Source of the DNA: Stieleria neptunia
GTDB taxonomy: Bacteria; Planctomycetota; Planctomycetia; Pirellulales; Pirellulaceae
Assembly: GCF_007754155.1 (NCBI RefSeq)
Contig: NZ_CP037423.1
Coordinates: 1,674,001-1,738,000, forward strand
Length of the DNA stretch: 64,000 bases
Reading direction: 5' to 3'
The first letter of the stretch is position 1; each line of letters opens with the position of its first letter. The notes beneath the pieces were generated by a model that saw only the letters and a program-made list of their open reading frames with translations, ran no database searches and was not told the origin of the DNA. The position numbers were made by a program, and so were the translations under genes. Below, in pieces: positions 11,574 through 26,483 of this stretch.

Positions 11574-11709
11574 CCGCCACCAGTATGACGGACCCACGGG
11601 CGGAGGGGACGCAAGACAGGGCGAATTCCGCACAAAGAAAGGGCGCCAATTGCGGAGGCTGGTTTTCCTGGCCTCACGGCCAAGGTAAAACGAGCAAAAC
11701 GACCAACAC

Positions 11710-11745
11710 GCCCCCGTAGCTCAGGGGATAGAGCACAGCTTTCCT
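11710..11745 (+). pseudogene. 5' half of host tRNA-Arg(CCU), interrupted (attL)
   Basis: GCCCCCG acceptor strand, the D arm (GCTC / GAGC), and the 5' anticodon stem and loop CAGCT-TTCCT are present. The sequence then departs from a tRNA at 11746. Joined to 26447-26483 it makes a complete 73-nt cloverleaf with anticodon CCU. This marks the left junction of the integrated element. Confidence 0.9.
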
Positions 11746-11810
11746 CAAACAGGTTTCAAGTTGCAAAGATTGCCCTGATACCCGTAAAAGCCGCCTAAAA
11801 TGGCGGTAAC

Positions 11811-11884
11811 GTCCGCGTAGCTCAGTTGGATAGAGCGGAGCTTTCCTAAAGCTTAGGTCGCGTGTTCGAGTCACGCCGTGGACG
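11811..11884 (+). tRNA. tRNA-Arg (anticodon CCU), element-borne
   Basis: A complete 74-nt cloverleaf. The acceptor is GTCCGCG / CGTGGAC, the D stem GCTC / GAGC, the anticodon stem GAGCT / AGCTT with loop TTCCTAA (anticodon CCT), the T stem GCGTG / CACGC with loop TTCGAGT, and the discriminator base G. No CCA is encoded. It lies inside the element, 66 bp from the attL core, and has the same anticodon loop as the tRNA gene the element destroyed while the acceptor and T stems differ. It therefore most likely compensates for the interrupted host gene. Confidence 0.95.
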
Positions 11885-11910
11885 CTGTGAGAGTTGATTT
11901 TTCGGCCAGT

Positions 11911-11968
11911 GGGGTAGCTCCCCGCGCGACGTGGCCGGCTGCGGTGCGAATCCTCTGCCGCGGCCGGC
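11911..11968 (+). promoter_or_regulatory. Two stable hairpins between tRNA and first element gene
   Basis: GGGG-TAGCT-CCCC (11911-11923) is followed by a long stem, GCCGGC-T-GCGG paired with CCGC-G-GCCGGC (11934-11968, 13-nt loop). They sit just downstream of the tRNA and 35 bp upstream of the first coding sequence. They could process or terminate the tRNA transcript, or control the leader of the gene at 12003. There is no U-tract. Confidence 0.4.
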
Positions 11969-12002
11969 TGCGTCAGCCGATGCTTAAAACGAGGATGATT
12001 TG

Positions 12003-12794
12003 ATGAGCGAGTTAACGAAAGTCGCACAGGCGGCGGTCAAGTGTTTTCAACTGCTGCCGATTGTCCGGCAGAAATCACGTATTTCGCTGGGCGATCTTTT
12101 CGAGCAATCGGACCTGCCCCGCATCGCGTCACTGCGGTTGCTGGAACTTAAAACCGTTGTTGCGTGCGCTGACGAGATCGCGGATTGCCTGACTGACGAT
12201 CTGGCCTATCCGATGCGAGCCGCGGTGGTTGCTGACGCATCGCAGAAACGCCCCGAAAAGCTGCCGGCGGAGTTTACATGTTGCCTGGAATCGGCGGTCC
12301 CGACTGTCAATCTGATGTTGTGGCGATTCTATGAATCCGTTTCGGATTCACCGGAATCGAAAAACGGTCTGGCATGCTTACTACTTGAACCAGTCGCGAA
12401 AGACATCGAAGAAGCGTCGACAAAGGTAGCGGCGGGAACGGTGCAACTGGCAGCGGTGATTCTCGAAAGTCTGGTTTCTGCGATCGACGCAACCGGCTAC
12501 TCCGACGATGACTTCCGCCTGTTTGCCGGAGCGGTGCAAAGAGAGTGCGCGGCGTTTGATGCAGTGGCACCCACATTAGCATTGCCGGAGCGTCCAGCAA
12601 AAAACAGCAGTCGCAAGCGATACGACTGGAATAAGGTTTACGCTGAGGCGCTGGTCATCATTCAGAACGAGCCCGAAGCGCTCGGCATGGATTGTGCGAA
12701 GTGGGCACGCAAACTGGGCGTCAAAAGGACGACTTTTGGCGAGTCCCCTGCATGGAAACAGATCCAGGGGCTTCAACTCGCTCACAGAATGTGA
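12003..12794 (+). CDS. Hypothetical element protein
   Basis: 263 residues from the ATG at 12003 (a TTG codon lies one codon upstream; GAGG is at 11991). I do not recognise a family. The first half is helical and moderately hydrophobic. The C-terminus contains NKVYAEALVIIQNEP followed by a segment (CAKWARKLGVKRTTFGESPAWK) that reads like a helix-turn-helix for DNA binding. As the first gene after the left attachment site, it could be a regulator or accessory factor. The stop codon lies inside the first arm of a hairpin. Confidence 0.6.
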   Translation: MSELTKVAQAAVKCFQLLPIVRQKSRISLGDLFEQSDLPRIASLRLLELKTVVACADEIADCLTDDLAYPMRAAVVADASQKRPEKLPAEFTCCLESAVPTVNLMLWRFYESVSDSPESKNGLACLLLEPVAKDIEEASTKVAAGTVQLAAVILESLVSAIDATGYSDDDFRLFAGAVQRECAAFDAVAPTLALPERPAKNSSRKRYDWNKVYAEALVIIQNEPEALGMDCAKWARKLGVKRTTFGESPAWKQIQGLQLAHRM

Positions 12795-12840
12795 CGGCAT
12801 TTTCTAACCGTCACTTTTCAATCGTAACCGTCACTTTTTT
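12791..12840 (+). terminator. Hairpin with two alternative 3' arms and T-runs
   Basis: GTGACGG (12791-12797) can pair with CCGTCAC at 12808-12814, followed by TTTT, or with a second CCGTCAC at 12828-12834, followed by TTTTTT. The 11-nt unit CCGTCACTTTT is thus repeated in tandem behind the first gene of the element. It looks like a duplicated intrinsic terminator, or a short iterated binding site. Confidence 0.5.
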
Positions 12841-12874
12841 AGCGGCTTCTCTTATAAGGAAAAGCCGCTTTTTT
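12841..12874. terminator. Intrinsic terminator
   Basis: AGCGGCTT (12841-12848) pairs with AAGCCGCT (12862-12869) and is followed by TTTTTT. A T-run also precedes the stem, so it could act weakly in both directions. Confidence 0.7.
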
Positions 12875-12927
12875 CGTTTTTTACCGTCCGTCACCGGAAT
12901 TCGATAGGGAGACACCTTCACTCGAAT

Positions 12928-13113
12928 TTGGACGGAGCAATGGGAACGACATACAGCGAAACGCCCGCCGGCTTAGTGGCGGTGCTGGTCGCAGCCAAAC
13001 GGACGGGAGACGCAACGCTAGCCGCTGCGATCACGGCCGAACTCAAGACCCGGTTCGACATCACGATAAAGGTCGGCCCGAAGTTTCTGACCCTGGCAGG
13101 GTCGCACAAGTGA
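12928..13113 (+). CDS. Small hypothetical protein
   Basis: Up to 61 residues from a TTG at 12928, or 57 from the ATG at 12940. The GGAG at 12934-12937 is too close to that ATG, so the start is uncertain. Composition is ordinary for a coding sequence. It overlaps the next start by four bases (GTGA), which supports translation of both in one operon. No family is recognised. Confidence 0.45.
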   Translation: MDGAMGTTYSETPAGLVAVLVAAKRTGDATLAAAITAELKTRFDITIKVGPKFLTLAGSHK

Positions 13114-13310
13114 TCCGGCTGGCACAGGACACCCAGGAAAGCAGCGTCCGGTTCTCGGTTGTTGAATCGCAGACTGACGCCCCGACGCCGCAAGCCTTCA
13201 TAGACGCCGCTGTCGCGGTGCTGCGTGCAGCACGGGAGCGACGGGAAGCGAAAGGCAAGACGACCACCAAGATACCACCGGCGACGGACTGCCGGCGGAA
13301 AGGAGTTTGA
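13110..13310 (+). CDS. Small hypothetical protein
   Basis: 66 residues from a GTG that overlaps the previous stop (GTGA). It has a helical Ala/Arg-rich middle (DAAVAVLRAARERREAKGK) and a basic tail. No family is recognised. It is supported mainly by the overlap and by its position in a run of small element genes. Confidence 0.4.
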   Translation: MIRLAQDTQESSVRFSVVESQTDAPTPQAFIDAAVAVLRAARERREAKGKTTTKIPPATDCRRKGV

Positions 13311-13395
13311 AAGCTGCCACACCGGCGAGGATGCCGGCGGGCAGCGTGTTGGTCAAGTTGTGGTGACTGGGACCAACAGAGCAAAGGAACCACCA

Positions 13396-13731
13396 ATGAG
13401 TCTATCACCATCATCCATCGCGGCAAGTCAAACGCCACTTTTTGACCACGGCCGACACGCCAAAGCGACCCGAGCCGCCGCGGCATCGGCCGCAAAAGAA
13501 AAGGCCCCGAATCGGCGAGAACAAATCTTGGCGTATGTCAAATCATGCGGCCCGGAGGGCTGTATTCGACATTCGATCGCAGATCACTTGCCGTGCCCAC
13601 TGTCCGGCGTCTGCGCCCCCGTGCTGGATCTTCTCCGTGATGGCGTCCTGATCGAGGACGGACGCAAGCGGATGTCGCCCTATGGCAGCATGGCAGCGGT
13701 GATCGTCTGCAAGGAGGCCGCGGAAAGATGA
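13396..13731 (+). CDS. Hypothetical winged-helix-like protein
   Basis: 111 residues from the ATG at 13396, preceded by AAAGGA. Residues 45-100 (REQILAYVKSCGPEGCIRHSIADHLPCPLS..., then VLDLLRDGVLIEDGRKR) have the spacing of a winged-helix domain: a helix, a recognition-helix region, and a beta wing ending in DGRKR. This suggests DNA binding, although the call is structural and not based on a named family. It overlaps the next gene (ATGA). Confidence 0.6.
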   Translation: MSLSPSSIAASQTPLFDHGRHAKATRAAAASAAKEKAPNRREQILAYVKSCGPEGCIRHSIADHLPCPLSGVCAPVLDLLRDGVLIEDGRKRMSPYGSMAAVIVCKEAAER

Positions 13732-14180
13732 TCGCACTACCGAACGACCAGCCCGAGCGGCACTTCCTGACCGTGGAAGAGATCCGCACCCAGGCGGCCG
13801 ACTATCCGACCGTCCGCATGGTCACGGGTGAGCAATTCCACGTCGATCAAAACGGTCTGCTGATGTTCGGCAATCCGTATCGCATCCGCGAAAAACCGTC
13901 TCCCGAATTGGTCGCGATCTGCCTGCGATGGTTGGAACGTGCGGAAAAGATCAAAACGCCGGGACTCAATTCATACGGACTGAAACATGCGGTTGAGCGG
14001 TGGGCCGGTGAATACGTGAGCAATGGCGCGTTCATTCTTGCCGCCCATGAACTCGGCTTCCGAATGATCCCCGATGATCGCACCTGGCGTGCGACGCTGA
14101 ACGTCGACGTCGGGATCAGCCGGCGTTGGTATCACAAGCAACCGGAATCTTTGTATTACAGTGATGGAGTAGGAGCGTGA
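13728..14180 (+). CDS. Hypothetical element protein
   Basis: 150 residues, translationally coupled on both sides (ATGA overlap upstream, GTGA overlap downstream). The chain is mixed alpha/beta with no signal or membrane segment. The segment from about residue 78 (KTPGLNSYGLKHAVERWA, then YVSNGAFILAAHELGF) resembles proteins that accompany primase-helicases in mobile elements, which I infer from position only. Function is unknown, possibly replication-associated. Confidence 0.65.
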   Translation: MIALPNDQPERHFLTVEEIRTQAADYPTVRMVTGEQFHVDQNGLLMFGNPYRIREKPSPELVAICLRWLERAEKIKTPGLNSYGLKHAVERWAGEYVSNGAFILAAHELGFRMIPDDRTWRATLNVDVGISRRWYHKQPESLYYSDGVGA

Positions 14181-16495
14181 GCACCGTATCAAACACGCCG
14201 GCCAATGCCTCGCCGCGACGTTCAACCGACGTTGCGGAGTTTCTTAAAGCGATTCACCCCGACGGCGTTTACGAAATTCGCATTTTCGAGACGCCGGACA
14301 AAAAAGGCGGATCGTTCAAGGCAACGGCAAGCGGCTATTACAACGATGCTGACGCAGCTGCGTCCCACGTCCGGCAATGGTCCCGCGTTGAACCGCCGGG
14401 AATTTATGTCACCATCAATCCAGTCGATGACTCACTGCTGGCGAGATCGGCCAACAAGATCGTCTTTCGAGCAAAACACGCAACCGCTGACGGTGACATC
14501 CAACGCCGGCGTTGGATCTTCATTGACATTGACCCGGTTCGACCGTCGGGAATCTCCGCAACTAAAGAAGAGTCTGACGCGGCTGTTGCGAAATGCCGCG
14601 AAATCTACGACTGGCTGAAAGGCCGCGACTGGCCAGAGCCTATTCGGGCAATGTCGGGCAACGGCACCTACCTTTTCTATCGTGTCGATCTGCCGAACGA
14701 CAATGAATCAGAGAAGCTAGTTCAATCATTCATCAATGCGGTTGCCGATCGTTTTACAGATGAGTTTGTTGACATCGACCGCAAGGTGTTCAACGCCTCG
14801 CGAGTGGCGAAGATCGGCGGAACGTGGGCACGCAAAGGTGAGAACCTGGCGGGCATCGATGGCATTGAAGATCGCCCGCACCGCCAATCGGTGTTCGTCA
14901 CTCCCGAAACGATCGAAACCGTTGAGCGTGATCTGATTCAATCAGTGATCGACGAGACCGCCGCACAGAAACCAGGTGGCACGTTGACGTTTGACGCTCC
15001 GCAATCACTTTCGGCGAATGTTTCGCAGTCGCCCGAATCGGTGAAACCGATTGCTTCCAATCAGCTGCGATGCCAACGCTACGTTGACAGGATCGACGGT
15101 GCAATTGAAGGGCAGAGCGGATCTAGTCAAACGCTAAAGGTCGCCTGCGTTATCGCACGCTTCGGATTGGACGAATCGCTCGGCTGGCCAATCATGCAAA
15201 CATTCAACCAGCGATGCCAGCCACCGTGGGATGAGAAGGACCTACGCCGAAAGCTTCAAGAAGGAATCAAGAAGGTCTGCGAAGAAGGTGTGTTTGGGAA
15301 GTTCGACGGAGAACCATCGCCAAGTGATCCAAGCGAGGCCAACAAAGAGAACCGCGGACCCTATTTCAAACTGATCGGCGCGGCCGAATTGGCAAACGGT
15401 GATTTCAAGCTGAACTATCTAATCCCCGGCATCATCGCCGAACGTCAACCGCTGATTATCGCCGGCCAATTCAAGTCGCTCAAAACGTCGATTGCGCTCG
15501 AGGTCGCGTTGTCGCTGGCATCGGGCACAAAATTTCTTGGTCGGTTCGAGATCCCAGAAAAGAAGCGTGTCTTGGTTCTCACTGCTGAAAGCGGGATGGC
15601 GACGGTTCAAGAAAGTTGTTTGCGGATTGCAAAGAGCCACTTTTTCGATTTGGCTGGACTTGAAGGAATGTTCACGGTCACTGATCGCGTCCCACGCCTG
15701 GCGAGTCTCGATCACGTCGGGGAACTCGGCCAGATTCTGCGGGATGGACAATTCGACGTTGTCATCGCGGACCCGGCGTACCTGATGATTGAAGGCGAGC
15801 AGGCCGGCAACCTGTTTTCGATGGGTGAGCAGCTGCGGGTCTTCTCGGAAATGGCCGCGGGGGCGAATTGCACCCCAGTACTGGTTCACCACGCCAAGAA
15901 AAACAACGTCAACGCCAGCGAATTCCAGCCGCTTGAATTGGTCGACATCGCATGGGCCGGGTTTGCTGAGTTTGCGCGCCAATGGCTCTTGCTGTCGCGA
16001 CAAGGCCGCTATGTCGAAGGATCGGGCGAACACCGATTGTGGATGAGCGTAGGCGGCTCTGCGGGGCATAACGGGTGCTGGGGGCTCGACATTGCCGAAG
16101 GCCACCCAGACGACGAAGGCGGCCGGCGATGGGACGTGACGGTGAGCAACGCCAGCGAATCCCGAGAACTTGCCGAGCAGCGAAAGGAAGAGGCCAAGGA
16201 ATCGAAAAAGCGGAAGGCCAACGAAAAAAATGCTCAAAAATTGCGAGATGCGTTTATCGGCGTTGGCCGCAATGGGCTCACCAAATCGGACGCATTCGAT
16301 CGAGCGGGGCTCAGTCACGGGGTGGCCGGCAAGAACGCATTGGCGTTCCTGATCGGCGACGACGTTCTGGAATCGTGCCAGGTCAAAAAAGCAAACGGCC
16401 AAGAATACGACGGCTACCGATTGACCACAAAAGAACGCGAGCGAGCCGACCGGGAGGAAAAAGAGAATGCTGATTTGCTCTCTCAGATGTCCTGA
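14177..16495 (+). CDS. Primase-helicase (AEP-like primase plus RecA-fold ATPase)
   Basis: 772 residues from a GTG overlapping the previous gene. The N-terminal third has the archaeo-eukaryotic primase pattern: the metal-binding FIDID (D117, D119), then MSGNGTYLFYRV near 159-170, then FNASRVAKIGGT near 205-216. A linker domain follows (about 296-372, ending WDEKDLRRKLQEGIKK). The C-terminal half is an AAA_25/RepA-like ATPase with a variant Walker A, GQFKSLKTS (430-438), where Leu replaces the usual Gly, and a Walker B-like VVIADP around 528-533. The tail is Lys/Glu-rich. The protein probably primes and unwinds element DNA at the iteron region directly downstream, so the element is likely to replicate after excision. 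Confidence 0.85.
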   Translation: MSTVSNTPANASPRRSTDVAEFLKAIHPDGVYEIRIFETPDKKGGSFKATASGYYNDADAAASHVRQWSRVEPPGIYVTINPVDDSLLARSANKIVFRAKHATADGDIQRRRWIFIDIDPVRPSGISATKEESDAAVAKCREIYDWLKGRDWPEPIRAMSGNGTYLFYRVDLPNDNESEKLVQSFINAVADRFTDEFVDIDRKVFNASRVAKIGGTWARKGENLAGIDGIEDRPHRQSVFVTPETIETVERDLIQSVIDETAAQKPGGTLTFDAPQSLSANVSQSPESVKPIASNQLRCQRYVDRIDGAIEGQSGSSQTLKVACVIARFGLDESLGWPIMQTFNQRCQPPWDEKDLRRKLQEGIKKVCEEGVFGKFDGEPSPSDPSEANKENRGPYFKLIGAAELANGDFKLNYLIPGIIAERQPLIIAGQFKSLKTSIALEVALSLASGTKFLGRFEIPEKKRVLVLTAESGMATVQESCLRIAKSHFFDLAGLEGMFTVTDRVPRLASLDHVGELGQILRDGQFDVVIADPAYLMIEGEQAGNLFSMGEQLRVFSEMAAGANCTPVLVHHAKKNNVNASEFQPLELVDIAWAGFAEFARQWLLLSRQGRYVEGSGEHRLWMSVGGSAGHNGCWGLDIAEGHPDDEGGRRWDVTVSNASESRELAEQRKEEAKESKKRKANEKNAQKLRDAFIGVGRNGLTKSDAFDRAGLSHGVAGKNALAFLIGDDVLESCQVKKANGQEYDGYRLTTKERERADREEKENADLLSQMS

Positions 16496-16503
16496 CCCCC
16501 CGT

Positions 16504-16768
16504 CACTCGGACACTCGGACTCACTCGGACACCAGTCGGACTTTTTCGCGTTGTCCGACTCATTCCACTCACTCGGACAACAACCCTATAGGGGTTGTCC
16601 GAGTGGTGTGTGTGAGAGTGTGTGAATCCGAGTGGTGTAAGGGTGGCGGTTTTTGTCCGAGTGAACGCAGGTAAATCAGAAACACTTTTTCAAAACGAAA
16701 AAGCAAAAACTGAAATCGCAAAAACGAAAAAACGGTTTTGCAAAAACGAAAACTGAAAAGCAAAAACA
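16504..16768. other. Candidate replication origin: iterons plus AT-rich tract
   Basis: The 9-mer CACTCGGAC occurs directly at 16504, 16512, 16522 and 16570, and inverted (GTCCGAGTG) at 16597 and 16655; shorter relatives are at 16534, 16553 and 16627. Two copies form an 11-bp dyad, CACTCGGACAA / TTGTCCGAGTG (16570-16605). From about 16675 to 16768 follows an A-rich stretch with repeated CAAAAAC / GAAAAA units, resembling a DNA-unwinding element. The order primase-helicase, iterons, AT-rich DNA matches plasmid and phage origins. This is inference from architecture. Confidence 0.6.
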
Positions 16769-16770
16769 CG

Positions 16771-17028
16771 ATGAGCGAAACCCGAGCACCTTATCGAACG
16801 CGCCGTGCGACACCACCGGAATCGATCCGTGTCGACGTCTCGTTGGCCCGCATCCAGCCGTTGATCGCGTCGGGCGACATCACAGCGGCATACCTGGCCC
16901 GACGCATCCACGGGGCGATTGTCGACACGCTGGCTGACGTGGCAGGCTCGGCGGTCGATGGCATCCCGCCCGATGACGTGGTTGTGAGCGTGAAGCCTGA
17001 CGACGCAGGTGAGGCCGGAGAGGCGTAG
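16771..17028 (+). CDS. Small hypothetical protein
   Basis: 85 residues from the ATG at 16771; no strong ribosome-binding site is visible in the A-rich leader. The N-terminus is Arg-rich, a helical middle (RIQPLIASGDITAAYLARRIHGAIVD) follows, and the tail is acidic. It is the first gene after the candidate origin and could be a small accessory or regulatory protein. No family is recognised. Confidence 0.5.
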   Translation: MSETRAPYRTRRATPPESIRVDVSLARIQPLIASGDITAAYLARRIHGAIVDTLADVAGSAVDGIPPDDVVVSVKPDDAGEAGEA

Positions 17029-17115
17029 GTACTACTTTGAGGTCCAACGCTCGGGCCTCCAAAGGGAACAGTCACAAAAATTAGTACTGTTGACCACTAA
17101 GAAGGAATTAACCCA

Positions 17116-17505
17116 ATGGCAAGACCGAAAGGGAAACAAATCGCCGTCACCTGCGGAGTTTGCGGCACGATTCGACACTGGCCCCCATCGAAAGCGGCGG
17201 GCAAAAAATACTGCTCGACCAAATGCCGGGACCGAGGGCGCGAGCTCGTCACAGATTGGGACTGGATCGCCGGCGGGGCGTCGGTGATTTACCGGATGCC
17301 CGACCGTTCCGATCCGATGGGGCGGGGTGTCATCGCCGATGACCGGGTGTTCCTACGGGTTGATGACGGCTGGCAAGAACTGGTTTTGCAGCGAAATACC
17401 CACTCCGCGGGATTTCGCGTTGTCGAGCGTGTTCCCATCGATGCGGCCGAGATCCCGGCCCCGACCGCCGAAACGCCACACGCGACGACTGAGGCGACGG
17501 AATGA
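17116..17505 (+). CDS. Zinc-ribbon hypothetical protein
   Basis: 129 residues, with AAGGAA just upstream of the ATG. The N-terminal 35 residues carry four cysteines in CGVCG and CSTKC, a treble-clef or zinc-ribbon pattern preceded by an AT-hook-like MARPKGK. The middle contains GRGVIADDRVFLRVDDGWQELVL, which looks like a small beta-barrel. The tail is Pro/Thr-rich. Nucleic-acid binding is likely. It overlaps the next gene by four bases. Confidence 0.65.
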   Translation: MARPKGKQIAVTCGVCGTIRHWPPSKAAGKKYCSTKCRDRGRELVTDWDWIAGGASVIYRMPDRSDPMGRGVIADDRVFLRVDDGWQELVLQRNTHSAGFRVVERVPIDAAEIPAPTAETPHATTEATE

Positions 17506-17768
17506 CCGATTTTGAAGCCGCCGCCCAGTGCACCATCGACCACAACCGCCGGCTATGGGCGTCGCGCCGTTTTCTGGCCGAACAGGCCGCCGCCCACCTG
17601 GACGACGCCGCGGCGATCCTGGCCGAGATCGACGACGAATGGGAGGCGATGGAAAACAACCACGCCCGATTGCGGCATCACGTCCGACGGTTGCAGCAAA
17701 AGTTGGCGACCGACGACAAGCCGCTGAGCGTCGGCGAACGGTTCGACATCATCACCCGAAAAAAGTAA
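17502..17768 (+). CDS. Small coiled-coil hypothetical protein
   Basis: 88 residues, starting in an ATGA overlap. Almost the entire chain is predicted helix with heptad-like spacing (AAAHLDDAAAILAEIDDEWEAMENNHARLRHHVRRLQQKL). No family is recognised. It is coupled to the zinc-ribbon protein upstream and could be its partner. Confidence 0.55.
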   Translation: MTDFEAAAQCTIDHNRRLWASRRFLAEQAAAHLDDAAAILAEIDDEWEAMENNHARLRHHVRRLQQKLATDDKPLSVGERFDIITRKK

Positions 17769-17806
17769 TTCCGCAGATCACACAACCGACTGATTTTGTT
17801 TTTCAG

Positions 17807-18055
17807 ATGACCGCTAAAGTTCAAAACATCAACCGGGCAAAGGTGACCGTCCACACGTTCGGCGATGCCCGCCGCTGTCCAACATGCGGAAGCACGCAGC
17901 GCGGCAAGTATGGGCATTCCCGGACGTCTCGGTTGACGCCGACGAAGTTGGAGCCGTGGACCCACTTGGTCGCGAGGCGTTGCAAGTGTGCGAAATGCGA
18001 GACACCCCGAATCGATTATTTCCGAGAGATCCGAACCGATGACCAAAGCAACTAA
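17807..18055 (+). CDS. Com-like zinc-ribbon protein
   Basis: 82 residues from the ATG at 17807. Two cysteine pairs (CPTCG near residue 24 and CKCAKC near residue 64) make a zinc ribbon, with a basic segment between them. The layout is reminiscent of phage Com-type and small zinc-ribbon proteins. The gene overlaps the next one by 17 bases. No clear ribosome-binding site is seen, so the start is tentative. Confidence 0.5.
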   Translation: MTAKVQNINRAKVTVHTFGDARRCPTCGSTQRGKYGHSRTSRLTPTKLEPWTHLVARRCKCAKCETPRIDYFREIRTDDQSN

Positions 18056-18815
18056 CCATCCAAACCCAATGGCGGGAATCCTGAGCGTCGGCGATGCCGC
18101 TGAAATGCTGGGGGCCAATCCGATCGACGTTCAGCGTGTAATCGCACTCGGCGAACTGGACGACAACCGCAACAAAGACGGCAACGTCGTGATGCGTGGC
18201 GACCTGGAACGATTCATGGGCCGTCGGGCACCGAACTTGAAGTCACTTCGAACCCGTGACGGATGGTTTGCACATGACCCCACCCTCGTCCAGCGTGACG
18301 AGTTTCAGCGTCGAATCCGTCGTCATGCCGGCGAACTGGCCCAAGTCACTGACGAGCAGATTGACGCGGCATACAAAGCCAACCCGCGGCAACGCCCCCT
18401 GACGTTCACGGTTGCCCCAACGAAATCGATGCGGGACTGTTTCGCAGCGGATTCAACAGGCACCCTGTTTGCCCGCAAGCCCTCTGGCGTTCCGTTGGGC
18501 GTGTCCGCAATGGCGGCAGTCTTGCGGGACGGAGCGTTGCGAGAAGTGAACCGACGTCTCGGCCGGCGCGGCATGAGCAAGGGCGGAGTCGGCAGCCGCC
18601 ACGCGCTCGAGGCGCTGTACGAATCACCCGAGGCGTTCAAGGGCATCGCTGAAGCTGCCAAGTCTGCACTGACCGCCCTGGACGTGGCATTCCACGAATC
18701 CCGAAAGCCGGCATCGGCACCCGGTGAAGTCTCCATTCTGACCACCGTGAAGCTGTCGTCACTGTCGACGAACTTTGACCGTCATGTCGCGATGGCGGTT
18801 GACCTGGCGTTCTAA
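18039..18815 (+). CDS. Hypothetical protein with N-terminal excisionase-like HTH
   Basis: 258 residues from the ATG at 18039. Residues 14-60 (LSVGDAAEMLGANPIDVQRVIALGEL, then GDLERFM) match the helix-turn-helix of MerR/excisionase-type domains. The remaining 200 residues are unrecognised and end in a beta-rich part (VSILTTVKLSSLSTNFDRHVAMAVDL). A regulatory role is plausible; a structural phage role cannot be excluded because tail-like genes follow. Confidence 0.6.
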   Translation: MTKATNHPNPMAGILSVGDAAEMLGANPIDVQRVIALGELDDNRNKDGNVVMRGDLERFMGRRAPNLKSLRTRDGWFAHDPTLVQRDEFQRRIRRHAGELAQVTDEQIDAAYKANPRQRPLTFTVAPTKSMRDCFAADSTGTLFARKPSGVPLGVSAMAAVLRDGALREVNRRLGRRGMSKGGVGSRHALEALYESPEAFKGIAEAAKSALTALDVAFHESRKPASAPGEVSILTTVKLSSLSTNFDRHVAMAVDLAF

Positions 18816-18866
18816 CTTTGACCATCCGATTCTGACCCCACCCCAACCAGCAAATAAGGCAAACCC

Positions 18867-19457: not shown

Positions 19458-19514
19458 ACCACGCCTAGCTCCTTTTCGGTCCCGCTCGTAGCGGGTTGGC
19501 GTGGGAACAAGGGG

Positions 19515-19551
19515 ACGGCGGGTTGGGCGTAAGCTTGGCCCGCCGTTTTTT
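19515..19551 (+). terminator. Intrinsic terminator
   Basis: ACGGCGGG (19515-19522) pairs with CCCGCCGT (19539-19546), followed by a T-run to 19551. It closes the transcription unit ending at 19457. Confidence 0.8.
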
Positions 19552-19669
19552 GCAAATGACGATCAAAAGAACAATCGGCCGGGACGTCACCGGATCGGTT
19601 GCCCGGTGATCCGGCAGTGTCGAGCGGGCGTTGTCGTTCACCGGGATTCAAACAACGGAAACCAGAAAG

Positions 19670-19924
19670 ATGGCCGACCCCTTCGAAGAAATGAACCAGC
19701 AACTTGACGCGATGCGTGACAAGTTGGTCGATGGCGGAATCAAGCAAGTCGAAACCGGCGAGCTTGCTGTCATGTTTTACGAGTCGACGCAGATGATTGA
19801 CGCATTGGAAGAAATCTCATTGCGAGGCACACAATTAACCGAGGCGATTACCGCGATCGGGAAGGCGATCAACGCCGAGTGTGAACGGCGAGAACACAAA
19901 CAACCAACCCGAGGGGAAAAGTAA
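19670..19924 (+). CDS. Small acidic protein upstream of tape-measure-like gene
   Basis: 84 residues from the ATG at 19670. Almost wholly helical (EEMNQQLDAMRDKLVDGG, then ALEEISLRGTQLTEAITAIGKAI) and acidic. It ends one base before the next start. In tailed phages, small helical assembly chaperones sit directly before the tape measure gene, so a chaperone role is possible. This is inferred from position only. Confidence 0.55.
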   Translation: MADPFEEMNQQLDAMRDKLVDGGIKQVETGELAVMFYESTQMIDALEEISLRGTQLTEAITAIGKAINAECERREHKQPTRGEK

Positions 19925-19925
19925 C

Positions 19926-22379
19926 ATGACCAGCAGCCAAAACATCGACGCGGGCGGAGCGAGTTTTGCGTTATCGCTGAAAGACGACCTGACCCGTGAT
20001 CTACAATCGTCGCTGTCCAACGCGGTCAAAGCGGTGCGTGGCGTGGTCGGGGAGATCGACCGGGAGATCAAGGCCCTTGGCCGGACCATCACGGACACCG
20101 GGAAGCAAATCGCCAAGATCGGGGCTGGCGCGAGTGCGTTGGGTGCTGGCGTGACTTTCGGTTTTGCTCGTGCGACCATTGCCGCCGGCGACTTTGCCGA
20201 AACGCTTTCGATGTTTGACGCGGTGTTCAAGGATCAATCTGAATCCGTCCGGCGATGGGGCGAGAACTACGCCAAGACCGTTGGCCGATCACGGGGGCAA
20301 CTGTTGCAGTTTTTGGCAGACGCCCAAGATACGTTTGTGCCGCTGGGATTCGACCGCAAGGAGGCCACCGAGCTATCTAAAACCGTCGCGAAGCTGGCGA
20401 TCGACTTGGGAAGCTTTAAGAACATCGATGACGCCGACGCACTGCGTAGCCTGTTGGGCGGCATCATCGGGAACACTGAAAACTTGCGCCGGTTTGGAGT
20501 GGTCGCACAAGAGGCTCAAATCAAGGCCCAGGCGTTATCGATGGGTTTCGACCCGTCAAACCTCACAGCGTATCAAAAGGCGTTGGCCATCTTGGAACTG
20601 ACGCTAGCGGGCACCCAGGACGCACAGGGTGATGCGATCAAGACCGCTGGCAGTTTCGCTAACAGCGTGCGAGCGTTGAAAGCCGCATTCGGTGATCTGA
20701 AAAACGCAATCGGCCAACCGCTCTTGGAAATCGGCACGTCGTTCGTCCAAGGGATGGCGGCGGTTATCCAGTCGATCAACACGGTACTTGAAAAGTTCCC
20801 CCTGCTGACGAAGTTTGCCGCGGGTACGGCGTTGGCCGTTGGTGCTGTCGGTGCAGCGGCGACCGGGTTGGGCGTGGCGTTGGCAACGATGGGGACGTCC
20901 CTGGCGACGTCTGGGGCGTTGCTGCTGGTCTGGACGGTGCGAGCCCAGGGTTTAACCGCAACGATGGGGAAGATGGCAGTAGCGGCCAAGACCGCCGGAC
21001 CAGCGATCGCAGCGGCAACGGCAGAAGCCGGTAAGGGTGCCGCGGCGATGGCGGCGGGCGAATCGGGGGCTATGTCGTTTGGTGCTGCGTTGCGAGCCGT
21101 GGGGGCGCGTATCGCTCACGTCGCCGAGGCTATCGTCCTGGCGTTTCGGTCGAACATCTTCAAGGCCGCAATGGGCGGCATCATTCGCGGTCTGCGTAAC
21201 ATCGTCACAGTCGGCCGGCTTGCGGGATCTGCCATCATCGGCATCGCCAAGACTGGACTGATGGCGTTGGGGCGTCTGCTCGTTTCGCCGATCGGCCTAA
21301 TCGCCGCTGCGACCGCCGCGGCGATGAAGGGGTTAGAACTGTACTACCGTCGCGCCGAACAACTGGCGAACAAACGCGGGAAGCAACTGGACATTGAGCG
21401 GGTTAAGTTGGTGCGTCAGTCGTTCATCGATGCCGGCCAAACGCCACCGCATGACCTGTTCAAAACCTTCAATCCAAACGGTGCCCGCGTCGTCAAGAAT
21501 CCGGCCCCTGAGCTTGCCGCACTGACCGCGGCCCAGCGTGGTCTGGTCGATGAGATCAACGCGATGCGTTCCCCGCTGGAAACCTTCCGGGAGCGGATCA
21601 AGGCGGCAAGTGAATTGCTTAACCGGGGCGAGATCAGCAAAGATCAATTCAATGCGTTTTCTCGCCAAGAGTTTGATCGGTTCCAACAATCCGACCCGGC
21701 GACCCAGGCACGCAACAGTCTTGCCGATCAACTGCGAACGCCGGCGGAAACGCTCCGCAAGTCAATTGCCGACGCCCGAAAGTTGTTTGCCGACGATGCA
21801 CAGATGATGCGTCGCGCGGTCCAGGCCGCTATCGAAACCTTTAAGGCGACCGATCCGGCGGAGCAATTGAAACAGCAACTTATGACGCCGATCGAGCGGA
21901 TGCGGCAATCCATCGCCAACGCTCACAAGTTGTTCGCAGGCCAACCGGAGTTTCTTCGCCGCGCGATTGCCGCGTCCGTGAAAGAGTTTAAGGCAAGCCA
22001 ACCAAGCGCCGCTGACGATCCCGGCGTGAAAGCCGCTGAGGGGATCAGGGACGCGATCAAAACCGACGCCCAACGAGTCGCCGAGAAAATGGCCGAAGCG
22101 GTTAAGTTGGTACAATCTGGCCACCTGACGAAAGCAGAGGCCCAGGCGTTCAACCGGCAATTGCGTGACGACTTTTTAGGCGATGCCCCCGGCAAGCCAA
22201 GTTTCCAGCAGATGGCGGCACAAAGTGCTCACGTAGCTGCAAACATCGGCAAGTTCGCCCCAAGCTTCGACAACACGTCATCGGAAGAAAAAGCCTACAG
22301 GCGGAAGACAATCGAACTGCAACAGGAAATGCGAAAGGAACTGAGGGACATTCGACGACGACGCCCTGCGTTTATCTGA
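19926..22379 (+). CDS. Tape-measure-like phage tail protein
   Basis: 817 residues from the ATG at 19926, with GAGGGG upstream. Residues 85-280 match the conserved N-terminal part of tail tape measure proteins (TMP_TP901-like): GDFAETLSMFDAVFKDQSESV, then RSRGQLLQFLADAQDTFVPLGF, then a segment ending RRFGVVAQEAQIKAQA. A glycine/alanine-rich hydrophobic stretch (about 295-480) contains several possible membrane-spanning helices, typical of tape measures. The C-terminal 300 residues contain three near-repeats of the pattern LxTPxExxRxSIAxAxKLF, ending in a basic tail. It would set tail length and form the ejection channel in a phage, but no other tail, capsid or packaging gene accompanies it. 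Confidence 0.7.
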   Translation: MTSSQNIDAGGASFALSLKDDLTRDLQSSLSNAVKAVRGVVGEIDREIKALGRTITDTGKQIAKIGAGASALGAGVTFGFARATIAAGDFAETLSMFDAVFKDQSESVRRWGENYAKTVGRSRGQLLQFLADAQDTFVPLGFDRKEATELSKTVAKLAIDLGSFKNIDDADALRSLLGGIIGNTENLRRFGVVAQEAQIKAQALSMGFDPSNLTAYQKALAILELTLAGTQDAQGDAIKTAGSFANSVRALKAAFGDLKNAIGQPLLEIGTSFVQGMAAVIQSINTVLEKFPLLTKFAAGTALAVGAVGAAATGLGVALATMGTSLATSGALLLVWTVRAQGLTATMGKMAVAAKTAGPAIAAATAEAGKGAAAMAAGESGAMSFGAALRAVGARIAHVAEAIVLAFRSNIFKAAMGGIIRGLRNIVTVGRLAGSAIIGIAKTGLMALGRLLVSPIGLIAAATAAAMKGLELYYRRAEQLANKRGKQLDIERVKLVRQSFIDAGQTPPHDLFKTFNPNGARVVKNPAPELAALTAAQRGLVDEINAMRSPLETFRERIKAASELLNRGEISKDQFNAFSRQEFDRFQQSDPATQARNSLADQLRTPAETLRKSIADARKLFADDAQMMRRAVQAAIETFKATDPAEQLKQQLMTPIERMRQSIANAHKLFAGQPEFLRRAIAASVKEFKASQPSAADDPGVKAAEGIRDAIKTDAQRVAEKMAEAVKLVQSGHLTKAEAQAFNRQLRDDFLGDAPGKPSFQQMAAQSAHVAANIGKFAPSFDNTSSEEKAYRRKTIELQQEMRKELRDIRRRRPAFI

Positions 22380-22813
22380 TGGATCAATTTAGAACTCGGA
22401 CGGAGCTTGATCGAATCCGCGTCAAGCATCGGCTACCGCACTCCACTCTCGGCGAAATGCAGGCCGAAGTGTCGGCGTTTGTCTCCGCCGGCATGGACGT
22501 TGACGAAGCGTGTCAACTGGTTGGATTGCCCCGCCGGCTGTATCGGATCGGTGCCGCCGGCAATGAGCGGATCACGCATCTACCGACGCCGGCGGAGATC
22601 GAAGCGTTGACAATTCGCATCCGTGCGGGCGAGCGTATCTGTACCCGCCGAAGTCAAGAACGGTGGTTGAAGTACAATGAAATGATCGAAGCTGGCGACC
22701 CGGATTGCGAATCGTTCGACCTGGCCGGCCAGATCGCCGAGGATGCGTGCACCCTCCCGCCCTGGCTCTATTCCGCCGATGAAGAAAAAGAAACGCGATC
22801 GCGTGGTCGATGA
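22379..22813 (+). CDS. Hypothetical protein with HTH-like segment
   Basis: 144 residues. Its ATG overlaps the stop of the tape-measure-like gene (TGATG), so the two are coupled. Residues 38-60 (GMDVDEACQLVGLPRRLYRIGA) resemble a helix-turn-helix. The rest contains RRSQERWLKYNEMI and an acidic C-terminal half. No named family is recognised. Confidence 0.55.
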   Translation: MDQFRTRTELDRIRVKHRLPHSTLGEMQAEVSAFVSAGMDVDEACQLVGLPRRLYRIGAAGNERITHLPTPAEIEALTIRIRAGERICTRRSQERWLKYNEMIEAGDPDCESFDLAGQIAEDACTLPPWLYSADEEKETRSRGR

Positions 22814-22988
22814 TTCAAACCACCTTTTGACGCTGGCCGAAGTTGCCAGAATCGCAAACGTCAAACGCGATGACGTTGACCGATGGATTGAGACGGGAGG
22901 TTTGAAGTCGTTCCCGATGCCGGGGTCCACTCGGCGACGTGTGAGGCGTCGAACGTTGAATGCGTTCCTGGCCGAGCTGCGGGAGTGA
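22779..22988 (+). CDS. Excisionase-like small DNA-binding protein
   Basis: 69 residues from the ATG at 22779, overlapping the end of the previous gene by 35 bases. It has a basic N-terminus (MKKKKRDR), then the helix-turn-helix LLTLAEVARIANVKRDDVDRW, then a wing-like PMPGSTRRRVRRRTL, which is the layout of excisionase/MerR-type HTH_17 proteins. It is a good candidate for the recombination directionality factor or an early regulator of the element. The short length matches the family. Confidence 0.65.
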   Translation: MKKKKRDRVVDDSNHLLTLAEVARIANVKRDDVDRWIETGGLKSFPMPGSTRRRVRRRTLNAFLAELRE

Positions 22989-23055
22989 AGTACTCCGCCG
23001 CCGGATCCGGTGACGCGGCCGGCGGTGACGCGATGGCGGCAAAATGCGATTTGTG

Positions 23056-23085
23056 TTGACACCCGCCGCGGATCTGGCGTAGATT
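23056..23085 (+). promoter_or_regulatory. Sigma70-type promoter
   Basis: TTGACA (23056-23061), an 18-nt spacer, and TAGATT (23080-23085). Transcription would start near 23092 and run through the structured RNA region into the gene at 23346. Confidence 0.6.
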
Positions 23086-23091
23086 GTTGGT

Positions 23092-23345
23092 GCTGTTGAT
23101 CGGGCCTAGTAACCCGGTCGACTTGGCCCTGACTTGTGAATGTCAGTGGCGACGAAGCAAAGAACTACCATTCTGAAACCATTGAGAAATGATTAAGCCG
23201 CAAGATTTGGGGGAGTCATCCCGAGCTTTGAACCAGCATAGGCTGGCGAGCGACGGACCCGACCGGGAGTAGTTCCCCGGTTACTACCAGGTCTTGCGGC
23301 TTAATCGTGCGCGGTCCGAGAGGTCCGCAAGGAGTCATCGAATCG
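23092..23345 (+). ncRNA. Candidate structured RNA or long structured 5' leader
   Basis: About 250 nt between a promoter and a coding sequence. A 15-bp perfect stem (23191-23205 with 23292-23306; core TTAAGCCGCAAGA) encloses three hairpins: GGGA-GTCA-TCCC (23211-23222), CCAGC-ATAG-GCTGG (23233-23246) and ACCGGG / CCCGGT (23262-23281). The result is a cloverleaf-like four-way junction. Upstream are GATCGGG / CCCGGTC and CTGAC / GTCAG hairpins. Downstream is GCGGTCC-GAGA-GGTCCGC, a stem with a T-T mismatch and GNRA loop, immediately before the AAGGAG ribosome-binding site. No reverse transcriptase or known riboswitch partner is present. Confidence 0.6.
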
Positions 23346-23768
23346 ATGGCCTATTTATCCCTTACCGAGGGTGCCCGGCGTGCAGGCGTTCATACCGATC
23401 GCGTCCGCAAGCTTGTCAAAGCCGGCATCATCCAGCGGTATCGCGTCCCCGGTTATTTGTATCCGGTAATCCGTGAATCAGACGTGGCCACCATCCGGCG
23501 GGAATGCCCTGCCCGGTATCTGCCACCGGTCGAAGTTGTGATCGGCGTTCCCTTTCGCGATCCGACGCCCCAAGAGATCCGGGAGCGTTGCCGCGTAATC
23601 CGCGAAGCGGCGCTACAGCGTATCCCGGACCCACGAACTACGCATTACGCCGACACGCCAAAGCCGCCGGCCATCCCATCGGCCGATGCGATCCTACGGC
23701 GTTTCCGTGAGCGTGCGGTGCGTCATGTACGGCGACGATCACGACGGCAACTGCGGATTGCCGGTTGA
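23346..23768 (+). CDS. MerR/excisionase-like DNA-binding protein
   Basis: 140 residues from the ATG at 23346, with AAGGAG 11 nt upstream; the in-frame GTG further upstream lies inside the leader hairpins. Residues 4-55 (LSLTEGARRAGVHTDRVRKLVKAGII, then a wing ending PVIRESDV) form a winged helix-turn-helix of the excisionase type. The C-terminus is strongly basic (RHVRRRSRRQLR). It is likely a regulator of the element or a recombination directionality factor, and its expression may be controlled by the structured leader. Confidence 0.65.
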   Translation: MAYLSLTEGARRAGVHTDRVRKLVKAGIIQRYRVPGYLYPVIRESDVATIRRECPARYLPPVEVVIGVPFRDPTPQEIRERCRVIREAALQRIPDPRTTHYADTPKPPAIPSADAILRRFRERAVRHVRRRSRRQLRIAG

Positions 23769-23881
23769 GTTGCTTGTGCGCAATCGTGCACATTCCAAAA
23801 GTTGCCGCCGGTGACAACTTTCAAAACTTCACCGGCATCACGTCCCAAACCAAAAACAAACTGATTCATAAGGCCGAAACT

Positions 23882-24373
23882 ATGCAAGCCACTGTTGAAC
23901 TCAAAAATCTGTCCCAAATCCGCCAACGCCGCATCGACATGCACAAGGAGCGGCAAGCGATCGCAGCCGAAGCAAAGAAGCCAACCCGCCCGTTGGCCGT
24001 TAAAGTCGCCGAGGCGAAGAAACCCAAGGTCAAACTGGTCTACACGGTCGAGCGTCTGGAACGCTACGACGTCGTGCTCGGCACCCTGGAACGCCTGGCG
24101 ATCGATCAGCCATTGGACGCCCAGCCGTTGGCCAAAGCGTTGCTGGCAAGCTTGCTGCGTCTGTCATGGGCGCGAGTGTCGGGCAAGCCTGCGACCAATC
24201 CCGACCCCTGCGACGTCCCGCACAAGTTGTTCCTCCGCCAAGCGATCACCAAGCCGGCGCTTAAGCGGCTGCAATTCGCGATCAAGAAGAACGCCACGAC
24301 ATCGAATCTGCTGGAATGCTGCAAAGGTCTGTTGATCTGGTTGGCGTCCGATCCTGACGCCGTGCTGGCGTGA
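23882..24373 (+). CDS. Hypothetical element protein
   Basis: 163 residues from the ATG at 23882. A basic Lys/Ala-rich N-terminal half precedes a helical domain (VYTVERLERYDVVLGTLERLAID, then LLASLLRLSWARVSG). No signal, membrane segment or recognised motif is seen. The basic character suggests nucleic-acid association, without further support. Confidence 0.55.
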   Translation: MQATVELKNLSQIRQRRIDMHKERQAIAAEAKKPTRPLAVKVAEAKKPKVKLVYTVERLERYDVVLGTLERLAIDQPLDAQPLAKALLASLLRLSWARVSGKPATNPDPCDVPHKLFLRQAITKPALKRLQFAIKKNATTSNLLECCKGLLIWLASDPDAVLA

Positions 24374-24499
24374 TGACAACAAGCCCCTGACCTGAGACGG
24401 GGGCACGGGACCGGCGGGATCTGGTCGCACTGTTGCCGCACTGCGAACGCTCCGCCGGTCTTTTCTCCGAACACTGAAACCGATCACCAAGGCGAACCC

Positions 24500-24733
24500 A
24501 TGAAGATCACCGAAACGCGAAACGGCTACCGGGTCCAGGCCAGCACCCAACGAGAGAACCCCGCCATTGCCGCTATGGTCGCGTTGCTGGCGATGGCTCC
24601 CGAGATCACCGACGACGAACGCCATCGGCACAGCGAGCTAGCAGACGGCCAAACGTGGCGGAATTGGTGCGAGATCCCGGCGCGGATCTGGTCGGGACCG
24701 ATGGCGGCGATGGCTGGCGGATTGGACAACTGA
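24500..24733 (+). CDS. Small hypothetical protein
   Basis: 77 residues from the ATG at 24500. A short beta-like start (MKITETRNGYRVQAS) and a helical Ala/Met-rich stretch follow each other; no family is recognised. Upstream, ACCGGCGG (24410) and CCGCCGGT (24452) with a downstream T-rich stretch form a weak, large-loop terminator candidate separating it from the previous gene. Confidence 0.45.
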   Translation: MKITETRNGYRVQASTQRENPAIAAMVALLAMAPEITDDERHRHSELADGQTWRNWCEIPARIWSGPMAAMAGGLDN

Positions 24734-24752
24734 CGAAAAAACGTAATAATCC

Positions 24753-24815
24753 AAGCGGGCTAGGCTTAGCGGCCGAACCGCCGGAAACCTTCACCGGCTT
24801 GCCCCGCTTTTTTTT
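24753..24815 (+). terminator. Terminator-like hairpin directly before the integrase
   Basis: AAGCGGG (24753-24759) pairs with CCCGCTT (24803-24809), followed by eight T residues. Two smaller hairpins (GCGG / CCGC and CCGG / CCGG) lie inside the loop. It ends only 28 nt before the integrase start, so integrase transcription must read through it or initiate within it. Confidence 0.65.
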
Positions 24816-24843
24816 GAAGGGACAACATGAAGGGGTTGTCACA

Positions 24844-26448
24844 GTGAAGATCAAAAAACAGGGCGGACAGAAGCGGGCCGCTATCTATCTGCGTATGTCA
24901 TCGAGTCCACAAAAGGACTCAATTTCTCAACAGCGTGAAGCGTGTCTCTTATACGCCAGCGACACCGGCTATCAGATTGTTGGCGAGTACGCAGACGAAG
25001 CGATCAGCGGCGTATCGTCCGAGCACAAGCGGAACGGTTTTCAAAAGCTGGTCACGGATGCCGAAGCGGGGCAGTTTGAATACGTCGTCTGCTGGTCGCA
25101 AAGCCGCGCGAGTCGATCGAAACCACGTCAATTCGTCGCCGAGATGAACCCCTTGGCTGACGCTGGCGTGAAGTTGGTTTTCACCGATCGCGGTGTCGTG
25201 GACATGGACGACCTACCGGGGTTCCTTATGTCGACGATCGACGCGCACAGTAACAACGACTACGTGATGAAGATGGCCCGTGAAGTGGTCCGCGGCCAGA
25301 ACGACAAGCGAGCCGCCAAGGGGCTTTGGGTTGCTGGTCGCCCTCCATTCGGTTTGGCGACCGTGAAGGGTGGCAAAATCATTGTCGGAGATCCTGACGA
25401 CGCCGAGACAATCCGCCTTATGTTCAAGTGGTACGCCGAGGGATTCAGCGACCGGAGTATCGTTCACAAGCTTGCCGATGAACGGGGCGTCACCAAAACG
25501 CAGCGATTCGTTCAAAAGGTTCTGACCAACCCGCTTTACGCCGGCGACTACCGTTGGAACGCCAATAGCAGCGGGCGGTTCTTTGCACTGCGTGACGGTC
25601 GGGTCACAAAAGACTTTGAAACCGGCAAGAACGCCGAAGCTGACGTCGTGTTCATCCCGAACAATCACGAAGCCATCGTCGACCGGGAGCTATTCACTCG
25701 CGTTCAAATGATGCGTGCCGAGCGATCGACCAAGACAACCCCGTTCCGCAACGGCGGCGAGCACCTGTTGACCGGATTGTGCCGATGCTCAAAGTGCGGG
25801 CAGAAATTCACCGGGCACCGATACAAGGGCAAGAACGGCAACCCCGACCGGCTTACCCTGTCATGCAATGGATACCGGCAAGGCACCTGCCAAGCTAACT
25901 ACGTAAATCAGCGCGACGTCGTGGCGTCAGTGGTCGCGTCATTCGATCAACTGATTGATCAGGACAAGGCCGATGCACTGCGGGAGGCCTACGCCGATTC
26001 ATTGCGAGACGATCGCCCTAGCGTCAACGTGAAGGCCCTGAGAGCGTCTCTCGCGACCGCACAAGCCGACTACGACAATCTACGCGGCAAGCTGGCGAAA
26101 CTTCCTGACGATCTGCTGGCAGACTTCACCGACGATCTGCGAAAGAAGAAAGCCCAGATTGAAAAACTACAATCGCGAATCGACGCGGCAAGCGTGCCCG
26201 AAGTCGATCAGTTAAGCCGATTCGATGAACAGCTAGACATGCTCGGCGACGTCGTGGGAGAACTGAAAGCCGCTATCGCCGAAATAGCCGATACCGAACC
26301 GAGGTTAGTTCGAAACTTGCTGGCGACGATCTGCGAGTCGATCAAGCTGGATGTGACCGACCGAGGAAAGGGCAAGTCGCCAAGGTTCGAATTGATTGAT
26401 GGTGAAATCACCGTGAAACCTGGATTTAACTTGATACCCGCTTCCTAA
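24844..26448 (+). CDS. Large serine recombinase (element integrase)
   Basis: 534 residues from a GTG at 24844, preceded by GAAGGGG; the longer open frame has no plausible start. The N-terminal resolvase domain contains YLRMSS with catalytic Ser19, then DSISQQ and a DEAISG..R pattern. A Recombinase (PF07508-type) domain follows (GRPPFGLATV, EGFSDRSIVHKLADERG, NPLYAGDYRWN). A zinc ribbon comes next (CRCSKCG, then CNGYRQGTC), then a coiled coil near residues 385-500. The enzyme would join attP and attB through a covalent Ser-DNA intermediate. The last codons are ...CCCGCTTCCTAA, so the stop codon is formed by the attR core plus two bases of the host tRNA. In the excised circle the frame would continue for 17 residues. 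Confidence 0.95.
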   Translation: MKIKKQGGQKRAAIYLRMSSSPQKDSISQQREACLLYASDTGYQIVGEYADEAISGVSSEHKRNGFQKLVTDAEAGQFEYVVCWSQSRASRSKPRQFVAEMNPLADAGVKLVFTDRGVVDMDDLPGFLMSTIDAHSNNDYVMKMAREVVRGQNDKRAAKGLWVAGRPPFGLATVKGGKIIVGDPDDAETIRLMFKWYAEGFSDRSIVHKLADERGVTKTQRFVQKVLTNPLYAGDYRWNANSSGRFFALRDGRVTKDFETGKNAEADVVFIPNNHEAIVDRELFTRVQMMRAERSTKTTPFRNGGEHLLTGLCRCSKCGQKFTGHRYKGKNGNPDRLTLSCNGYRQGTCQANYVNQRDVVASVVASFDQLIDQDKADALREAYADSLRDDRPSVNVKALRASLATAQADYDNLRGKLAKLPDDLLADFTDDLRKKKAQIEKLQSRIDAASVPEVDQLSRFDEQLDMLGDVVGELKAAIAEIADTEPRLVRNLLATICESIKLDVTDRGKGKSPRFELIDGEITVKPGFNLIPAS

Positions 26449-26483
26449 AGCTGGTGTCGCAGGTTCGAATCCTGCCGGGGGTG
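26442..26483 (+). pseudogene. 3' half of host tRNA-Arg(CCU), interrupted (attR)
   Basis: TTCCTAA loop, AGCTG 3' anticodon stem, variable GTGTC, T arm GCAGG-TTCGAAT-CCTGC, acceptor CGGGGGT and discriminator G. It pairs exactly with the 5' half at 11710-11745 (anticodon stem CAGCT / AGCTG; acceptor with a terminal G-U pair). No promoter or 5' half is adjacent, so it cannot be a functional tRNA here. Confidence 0.9.

Follow-up and report, generated by a model that had tools for sequence, protein, structure and literature searches.

A phage-related serine-recombinase element of Stieleria neptunia appears to split the host's single tRNA-Arg(CCU) gene and to carry a substitute

A common explanation for the preference of integrases for tRNA genes is that integration can leave these genes whole. 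In Mycobacterium abscessus, 16 of 23 chromosomal attachment sites (attB) of tyrosine integrases are reported to overlap tRNA or transfer-messenger RNA (tmRNA) genes, the sites of serine integrases being listed apart (PMC10654092). The archaeal SSV-type suicidal integrases are described as having the element's own attachment site (attP) inside the integrase gene and a tRNA target, with the tRNA reconstituted (PMC8371274, PMC3293823). In mycobacteriophage BPs, attP is reported to lie within the repressor frame, and integration removes a C-terminal part with an ssrA-like degradation tag (PMC4557955). The prophage-like tmk island of Pseudomonas putida KT2440 splits an essential host gene and encodes the replacing enzyme, as genetics showed (PMC10653934). 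Durrant et al. (2022) grouped recombinase targets by protein-gene clusters, and the word 'tRNA' does not occur in the main text of their paper (PMC10083194). Among the matches listed from the PMC literature (subscription papers and bioRxiv lie outside it), there was no report of a serine integrase that splits a tRNA gene and carries its replacement. Here we analyse a stretch of 64,000 nucleotides (the window; positions 1,674,001 to 1,738,000 of NZ_CP037423.1) from the Pirellulaceae planctomycete Stieleria neptunia, whose genome is one contig of 10.98 Mb. Within it a 14.7-kb element, at 11746-26446, interrupts a tRNA-Arg(CCU) gene, the cut lying in the anticodon. Our explanation, to which we give a probability of roughly 0.87, is that a phage-related serine-recombinase element splits the host's single tRNA-Arg(CCU) gene, carries a substitute for it, and has a recombinase frame that crosses attP.

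The 5′ half of the tRNA gene (Table 1) ends in TTCCT; the same five bases recur at 26442-26446 and lead into the 3′ half, which runs to 26484. Given 60-150 bp of flank, neither half was recognized as a tRNA by ARAGORN; the joined halves were read as tRNA-Arg(CCT). We found the same arrangement in Rubripirellula lacrimiformis K227x (G491) and Rhodopirellula maiorica SM1 (G524; G480 was taken as the same), where the halves are likewise a tRNA only once joined. The core shared by both junctions is TTCCT in the window element alone and shrinks to CCT across the three elements. The shared core thus measures just 3-5 bp, and no restored copy of the tRNA stands at either end of the element.

Among 13 other genomes of the genus, seven have an identical 3′ half, and in all seven it is part of an intact tRNA whose 74 bases are the same as those of the joined halves. 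This letter-for-letter identity rules out a chance resemblance of the halves to a tRNA. The loci of G005 and G012 are syntenic and uninterrupted, with the window's flanks on both sides of the tRNA: in G005, 3 kb upstream aligns at 89.4% and 227 bp downstream at 81.5%, and in G012 the figures are 88.7% for 3 kb upstream and 79.0% for 210 bp downstream, the upstream alignments reaching to where the intact tRNA begins. In G001 and G013 the upstream side aligns at 77%, with little or no alignment downstream, and in G006, G009 and G010 the tRNA is present in different surroundings. At the same locus of G002 (upstream 90.3%; downstream 88.3% over 179 bp) there is a CCU tRNA of another type, which may go back to a previous replacement or to gene conversion. 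This tRNA (G002:C355, L121, 197-270, minus strand) has an anticodon arm like that of the window's replacement tRNA and the same host leader in front. The original prediction, made from the letters of the window, had read the two fragments as one split tRNA with anticodon CCU, broken in the anticodon loop and left unrestored; the comparison bears this out, and the counter-case, that relatives would hold the fragments as unrelated sequences, did not occur, since they are joined there as one gene, in some genomes at the same locus. The joint through TTCCT that it had proposed stands for the window element, but gives way to CCT as the general core. Because recombination of this kind is conservative and empty sites exist, it follows that loss of the element would restore the host gene.

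The original prediction had also held that the element brings a whole, different tRNA-Arg(CCU) near its left end. Indeed, in the whole window ARAGORN read a single complete tRNA, tRNA-Arg(CCT) at 11811-11885, and the two related elements also bring a different CCU tRNA. A covariance search of the genome, in which 150 of 282 first-look candidates were scored, gave 88 tRNA matches, all covered by the stretches that we fetched. Around them ARAGORN found 95 tRNA genes, corresponding to 85 of the 88 places plus 10 genes absent from the covariance list; in the three places without an ARAGORN gene no CCT anticodon was seen by eye. The Arg anticodons among the 95 genes were ACG (1), GCG (2), TCG (4), TCT (2) and CCT (1, that of the element). 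A whole-genome run of a CCU tRNA pattern returned the replacement and the split 3′ half and nothing else, so that neither approach revealed a second intact tRNA-Arg(CCU). The replacement tRNA may be essential cargo, as had been proposed. As a separate observation, the genome has two large tRNA arrays (L035 and L036; G000:C1:582500-596500 and 7773500-7781500) with 28 and 23 tRNAs, none CCU; unlike these, tRNA arrays of G032 contain CCU.

Wherever the left end could be read, in three elements of three, the cut in the host tRNA-Arg(CCU) falls at one and the same position, and the element has a whole tRNA-Arg(CCU) of different sequence inside the left junction, 65 bp from it in the window and 66 and 68 bp in the other two. 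In the window, replacement and host gene differ both 5′ and 3′ of the anticodon. That of K227x has four base differences from its host gene, three of them at positions 27, 43 and 44 (read from the alignment); the window and SM1 replacements differ more widely from their host genes, and the 27-43 pair differs in all three. Among 37 other CCU tRNAs compared, those closest to the three replacements belong to Pirellulaceae, suggesting that the replacement tRNAs come from hosts. No further look-alike CCU tRNA was seen by eye in a loose pattern search of the K227x and SM1 genomes, G524 being a draft. The K227x element (8199359-8229821, 30.5 kb) encodes terminase, portal, major capsid and tape-measure proteins among its scanned open reading frames (ORFs; from 29 selected) and, on account of these genes, is by its predicted content a prophage. 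Since related elements in two related bacteria show both the split and the carried substitute, as read from sequence in three of three cases, this disrupt-and-replace layout looks like a repeated lifestyle rather than an accident.

The protein encoded at the right end of the element combines a resolvase catalytic domain, a recombinase domain and a zinc ribbon, all above cut-off, and is thus a large serine recombinase; its start was set from the alignment of relatives. R17 and S19 are nearly invariant in the recombinase alignment (A3), and S19 we take to be the catalytic serine. The TAA stop (26446-26448) lies inside the anticodon loop of the host tRNA (CCTAA) and corresponds to U36-A37-A38 of the tRNA gene; the integrated forms in the three elements end in ...NLIPAS, ...NLIASP and ...NLICAS. 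In an alignment of 17 recombinase relatives (A1), 11 terminate exactly four residues past NL, where a stop inside the tRNA would put the C-terminus. P0014 and P0017 have other ends; P0016 matches in distance, but its end follows a tryptophan, so that its target is probably a different one.

Joining the element ends in silico gave an attP of the form AACTTGA-N10-CT-N10-TCAAGTT in all three elements, with inverted arms flanking a central dinucleotide that also occurs in attB. The inverted repeat centred on CT matches at 15, 15 and 17 of 25 bp, four other core centres give 10 or fewer, and 11, 1 and 0 of 20,000 arm shuffles reach the attP score. By this symmetry the crossover dinucleotide was placed at CT, tRNA bases 35-36. 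The attP motif common to the three elements is, as we read it, stronger evidence than the whole-arm score.

A profile of close relatives of the recombinase matched five of 241 Pirellulaceae genomes at E values up to 1e-90 and, at 1e-60 over 392 genomes from the whole phylum, the window's own genome alone. Three of the five matching recombinases end in a tRNA; those of G178 and G377 end beside other sequence. On plasmids and isolated phages all relatives were below 60% identity (at most 31% among the best 20 of each) and on viral contigs at most 28% (41 loci), while a scan of genome contigs gave R. maiorica at 54% and otherwise enzymes at 28% or less (best 80 of 214). Other serine recombinases end in other places. 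Two more distantly related enzymes (L094, L096) have their stop codon within the T-loop of a tRNA-Pro(CGG) gene that is intact and on the opposite strand, and two sister enzymes (L084, G377:C90; L086, G264:C9) end early in a gene reading ...GGYYRAVESAAELGMNVVQLFTK, presumably an endonuclease IV gene; in L084 the junction cuts off the frame of this gene, and both of these loci end near contig ends.

The recombinase frame runs across attP, and integration removes a C-terminal tail of 17-19 residues, whose codons, 11746-11798 in the window, are in the recombinase frame only in the excised circle. The circle-form tails are SNRFQVAKIALIPVKAA in the window, where the stop lies 12 bp ahead of the replacement tRNA, SRADQVTRIRLIVVKHSAA in SM1 and WRVVQVTRLPLTIVKFVA in K227x. 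Two proteins have been deposited with a tail, P0005 (SKRFQVTGVPLVIVKAA) and P0007 (WRAVQVPNLQLKITKHIA, on a 31-kb contig), and P0013 reads on into a longer stretch that likewise contains QV. The attP arm dictates QV but not the nine tail residues past it, whose conservation 0 of 20,000 order shuffles reached in each of three overlapping sets. Summed over three pairs, the tail DNA differs at 12 first, 8 second and 21 third codon positions, a third-position bias. The last tail codons of K227x fall in a stretch common with the host leader, and the test still holds when K227x and P0007, its close relative, are left out. Of the five tailed forms, three have AA at the end, one VA and one IA, and the host tmRNA tag, ADENLQLAA, ends in LAA; the tail is possibly a degron. 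With attP inside the ORF, a shorter product once integrated, and P0005 and P0007 tailed as deposited, the tail may act as a state-dependent switch.

We considered three other explanations of the locus. The insertion is in the anticodon loop, where tRNA introns lie, and the halves might be joined at the RNA level, as an intron-like or trans-split tRNA. The insert, however, is 14.7 kb long and encodes a phage-type recombinase, related intact loci lack it, and an Rfam search of 11400-26800 at E values up to 1 returned the complete tRNA and an int-alpA motif; as no intron family matched, we rejected this explanation, which we hold to be most improbable. An ordinary tRNA island, whose attachment overlap restores the gene, has precedents in the same tRNA: G044, G031 and G033 (L125, L126 and L124) hold elements or remnants of elements there, with an intact gene and a duplicated 3′ half. 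In G044 a tyrosine integrase ORF (PF00589, 2.6e-8) follows the intact CCU tRNA and the duplicated half lies 7.6 kb beyond it, the ordinary solution; G031 and G033 look like G044, in which alone a tyrosine integrase was sought. In the window, however, no complete copy of the target is left after integration, the shared core is just 3-5 bp, and the replacement is unlike the host gene both before and after the anticodon. The junctions contradict a restoring island, and we give it very little credence.

It could also be that the extra tRNA has nothing to do with the insertion. Phages often carry tRNAs, and one might lie near the end by chance, the loss of the CCU gene being harmless as tRNA-Arg(UCU) reads AGG. 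The host does have tRNA-Arg(UCU), three of its ORFs contain just 9 AGG among 3872 codons, and the genome holds its two large arrays of other tRNAs. Against a coincidence stand the same isoacceptor, orientation and 65-68 bp spacing in three of three elements. In addition, the CCU pattern has at least one match in 52 of 60 genomes, the window's own included, some of these by chance since the reversed control also gives a few, and the gene is therefore generally kept. We consider unrelated events improbable, and a host need for the CCU tRNA plausible.

Several of the same facts and some others weigh against our explanation of a split gene with a carried substitute. As tRNA-Arg(UCU) is present, able to read AGG by wobble, and AGG is rare, loss of the CCU tRNA might be survivable. 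The whole-arm attP score of the window and K227x (15) is barely above the best other position in 800 bp (14; 14, 14 and 13 for the three elements), and attB is not symmetric in this way (9, 2 and 3 of 25). The conservation of QV in the tail is accounted for by attP arm DNA alone, and the tail might have no function. Finally, the left end is readable in three elements only, and the ends of the SM1 element are on two different contigs, joined for reading.

We propose the following mechanism. For the large serine recombinase, attB would be the anticodon arm of the host's one tRNA-Arg(CCU) gene, and strand exchange at CT would split the gene; the complete tRNA-Arg(CCU) about 65 bp inside the left end would make this tolerable. 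A block upstream of the split gene (TTTTCC, 17 bp, TAAAAC; 11661-11692) is likely the host tRNA promoter, now facing the element's tRNA, and would reach it. The differences of the replacement around the crossover may spare it from the element's own recombinase. The circle would encode the tailed recombinase, and after integration the UAA supplied by the host tRNA gene would end the protein early. Transcription of the replacement, its function in translation and excision of the element are what we infer from the sequence.

Such integrations might turn over the tRNA gene itself. The leader and terminator of the resident tRNA of K227x match the element's left end and the terminator of its replacement (local scores 59 and 43; 0 of 1,000 shuffles each), and when the resident leader is compared with those of 18 CCU tRNA loci in other genomes of the K227x genus (L268-L271, L273-L286), the unshuffled scores are 12-19, as against this 59. 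These matches hint that the resident tRNA of K227x is a former phage tRNA turned host gene; alternatively, the phage captured a host unit. The window and SM1 show no leader or terminator match to the host's, which speaks against turnover. Each integration could kill the resident tRNA-Arg(CCU) and install a copy that its own integrase does not recognize; as the prophage decays, the phage copy would become the host gene and the target of the next phage. The tailed integrase of the circle and the untailed, integrated form may differ in activity or stability. That phages cycle a core tRNA in this manner (phage copy to host gene to next target) while the anticodon loop switches the integrase between the two forms is a tentative proposal, which we hold to be somewhat less likely than not.

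Elsewhere in the element (Table 1), the protein with an AAA_25 domain is perhaps a replication helicase or primase, and the HTH_17 protein a candidate directionality factor. The 832-aa protein had no Pfam match above cut-off, and our guess is that it is tape-measure-like; the scan of nine proteins for defence genes gave just one weak ZorA-like match, to this protein. No terminase, portal, capsid or tail genes were recognized in the window element by Pfam and phrog scans. The int-alpA motif, RF02996, was found neither in the seven other recombinase loci (including L253, K227x) nor in L132 (SM1, with just 360 bp upstream). Outside the element, the window contains 14-bp tandem repeats at 32963-33299 (23.6 copies of TGATGGGGGCAGAA at 96%) and 34903-35009 (7.6 copies of AAACAATGGGGGCA at 98%).

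Table 1. Features of the interrupted tRNA-Arg(CCU) locus, in window positions.
Feature	Position	Strand	Basis
Upstream block of split host tRNA gene	11661..11692	+	GGTTTTCCTGGC and AAGGTAAAACG conserved in window and in five relatives with synteny
attL, side of the host: 5′ half of tRNA-Arg(CCU), ending at base 36	11710..11745	+	junction reading, ARAGORN, congeners
Element left end: attP right arm TCAAGTT, 10 bp from CT, and tail codons SNRFQVAKIALIPVKAA with stop	11746..11798	+	inverted repeat, frame, conservation
Replacement tRNA-Arg(CCU)	11811..11884	+	ARAGORN; Rfam 62.8 bits vs gathering 29; sole intact CCU tRNA found in genome
Protein with AAA_25 ATPase domain, 772 aa	14177..16495	+	PF13481; phrog_3123 (unknown function) best, phrog_906 polymerase/primase weaker
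832-aa protein	19881..22379	+	phrog_28918, phrog_28083, long uncharacterised phage families of unknown function
HTH_17 excisionase-like protein	22743..22988	+	PF12728 2.7e-9; phrog_66 4.8e-8
int-alpA RNA motif, directly 5′ of recombinase	24754..24821	+	RF02996, 49.4 bits vs gathering 35.8
Large serine recombinase, 534 aa integrated form	24844..26448	+	PF00239, PF07508, PF13408; phrog_95 integrase 3.1e-87
attR element side: attP left arm AACTTGA, 10 bp from CT	26428..26446	+	attP rebuild, inverted repeat
attR, side of the host: 3′ half of tRNA-Arg(CCU), starting with anticodon CT	26445..26484	+	junction reading, ARAGORN, congeners

A serine integrase here breaks a tRNA gene, and the element pays with a substitute. 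If our explanation is right, the substitute would, much like an addiction, keep the element tied to its host, and tRNA genes would be replaceable by phage copies, which might help to explain the variation of tRNA-Arg(CCU) among close relatives. A recombinase frame laid over attP would be a simple route to two forms of an integrase, before and after integration, and the defined attB, an anticodon arm, together with attP may serve as an integration tool.

Among the systems described so far, the tmk island is like the window element in that both split their target; its substitute is a protein enzyme structurally related to a T4 kinase (PMC10653934), whereas the putative substitute here is a tRNA of the same isoacceptor beside the junction, in three elements. 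As in BPs, attP lies inside a phage ORF and a C-terminus is lost on integration; unlike in BPs, the protein is a serine integrase instead of a repressor, the stop is supplied by the host tRNA, and the tail is only possibly a degron. With the SSV-type integrases the element shares an attP inside the integrase gene and a tRNA gene as target. Those, however, are tyrosine recombinases, which the enzyme of the window is not, and their gene is left in two parts, whereas here the tail alone is exchanged and the tRNA stays unrestored. Islands of tyrosine integrases likewise have attB in tRNA genes but keep the gene whole, as G044 does with its duplicated 3′ half, whereas the element of S. neptunia splits its target and brings another tRNA.

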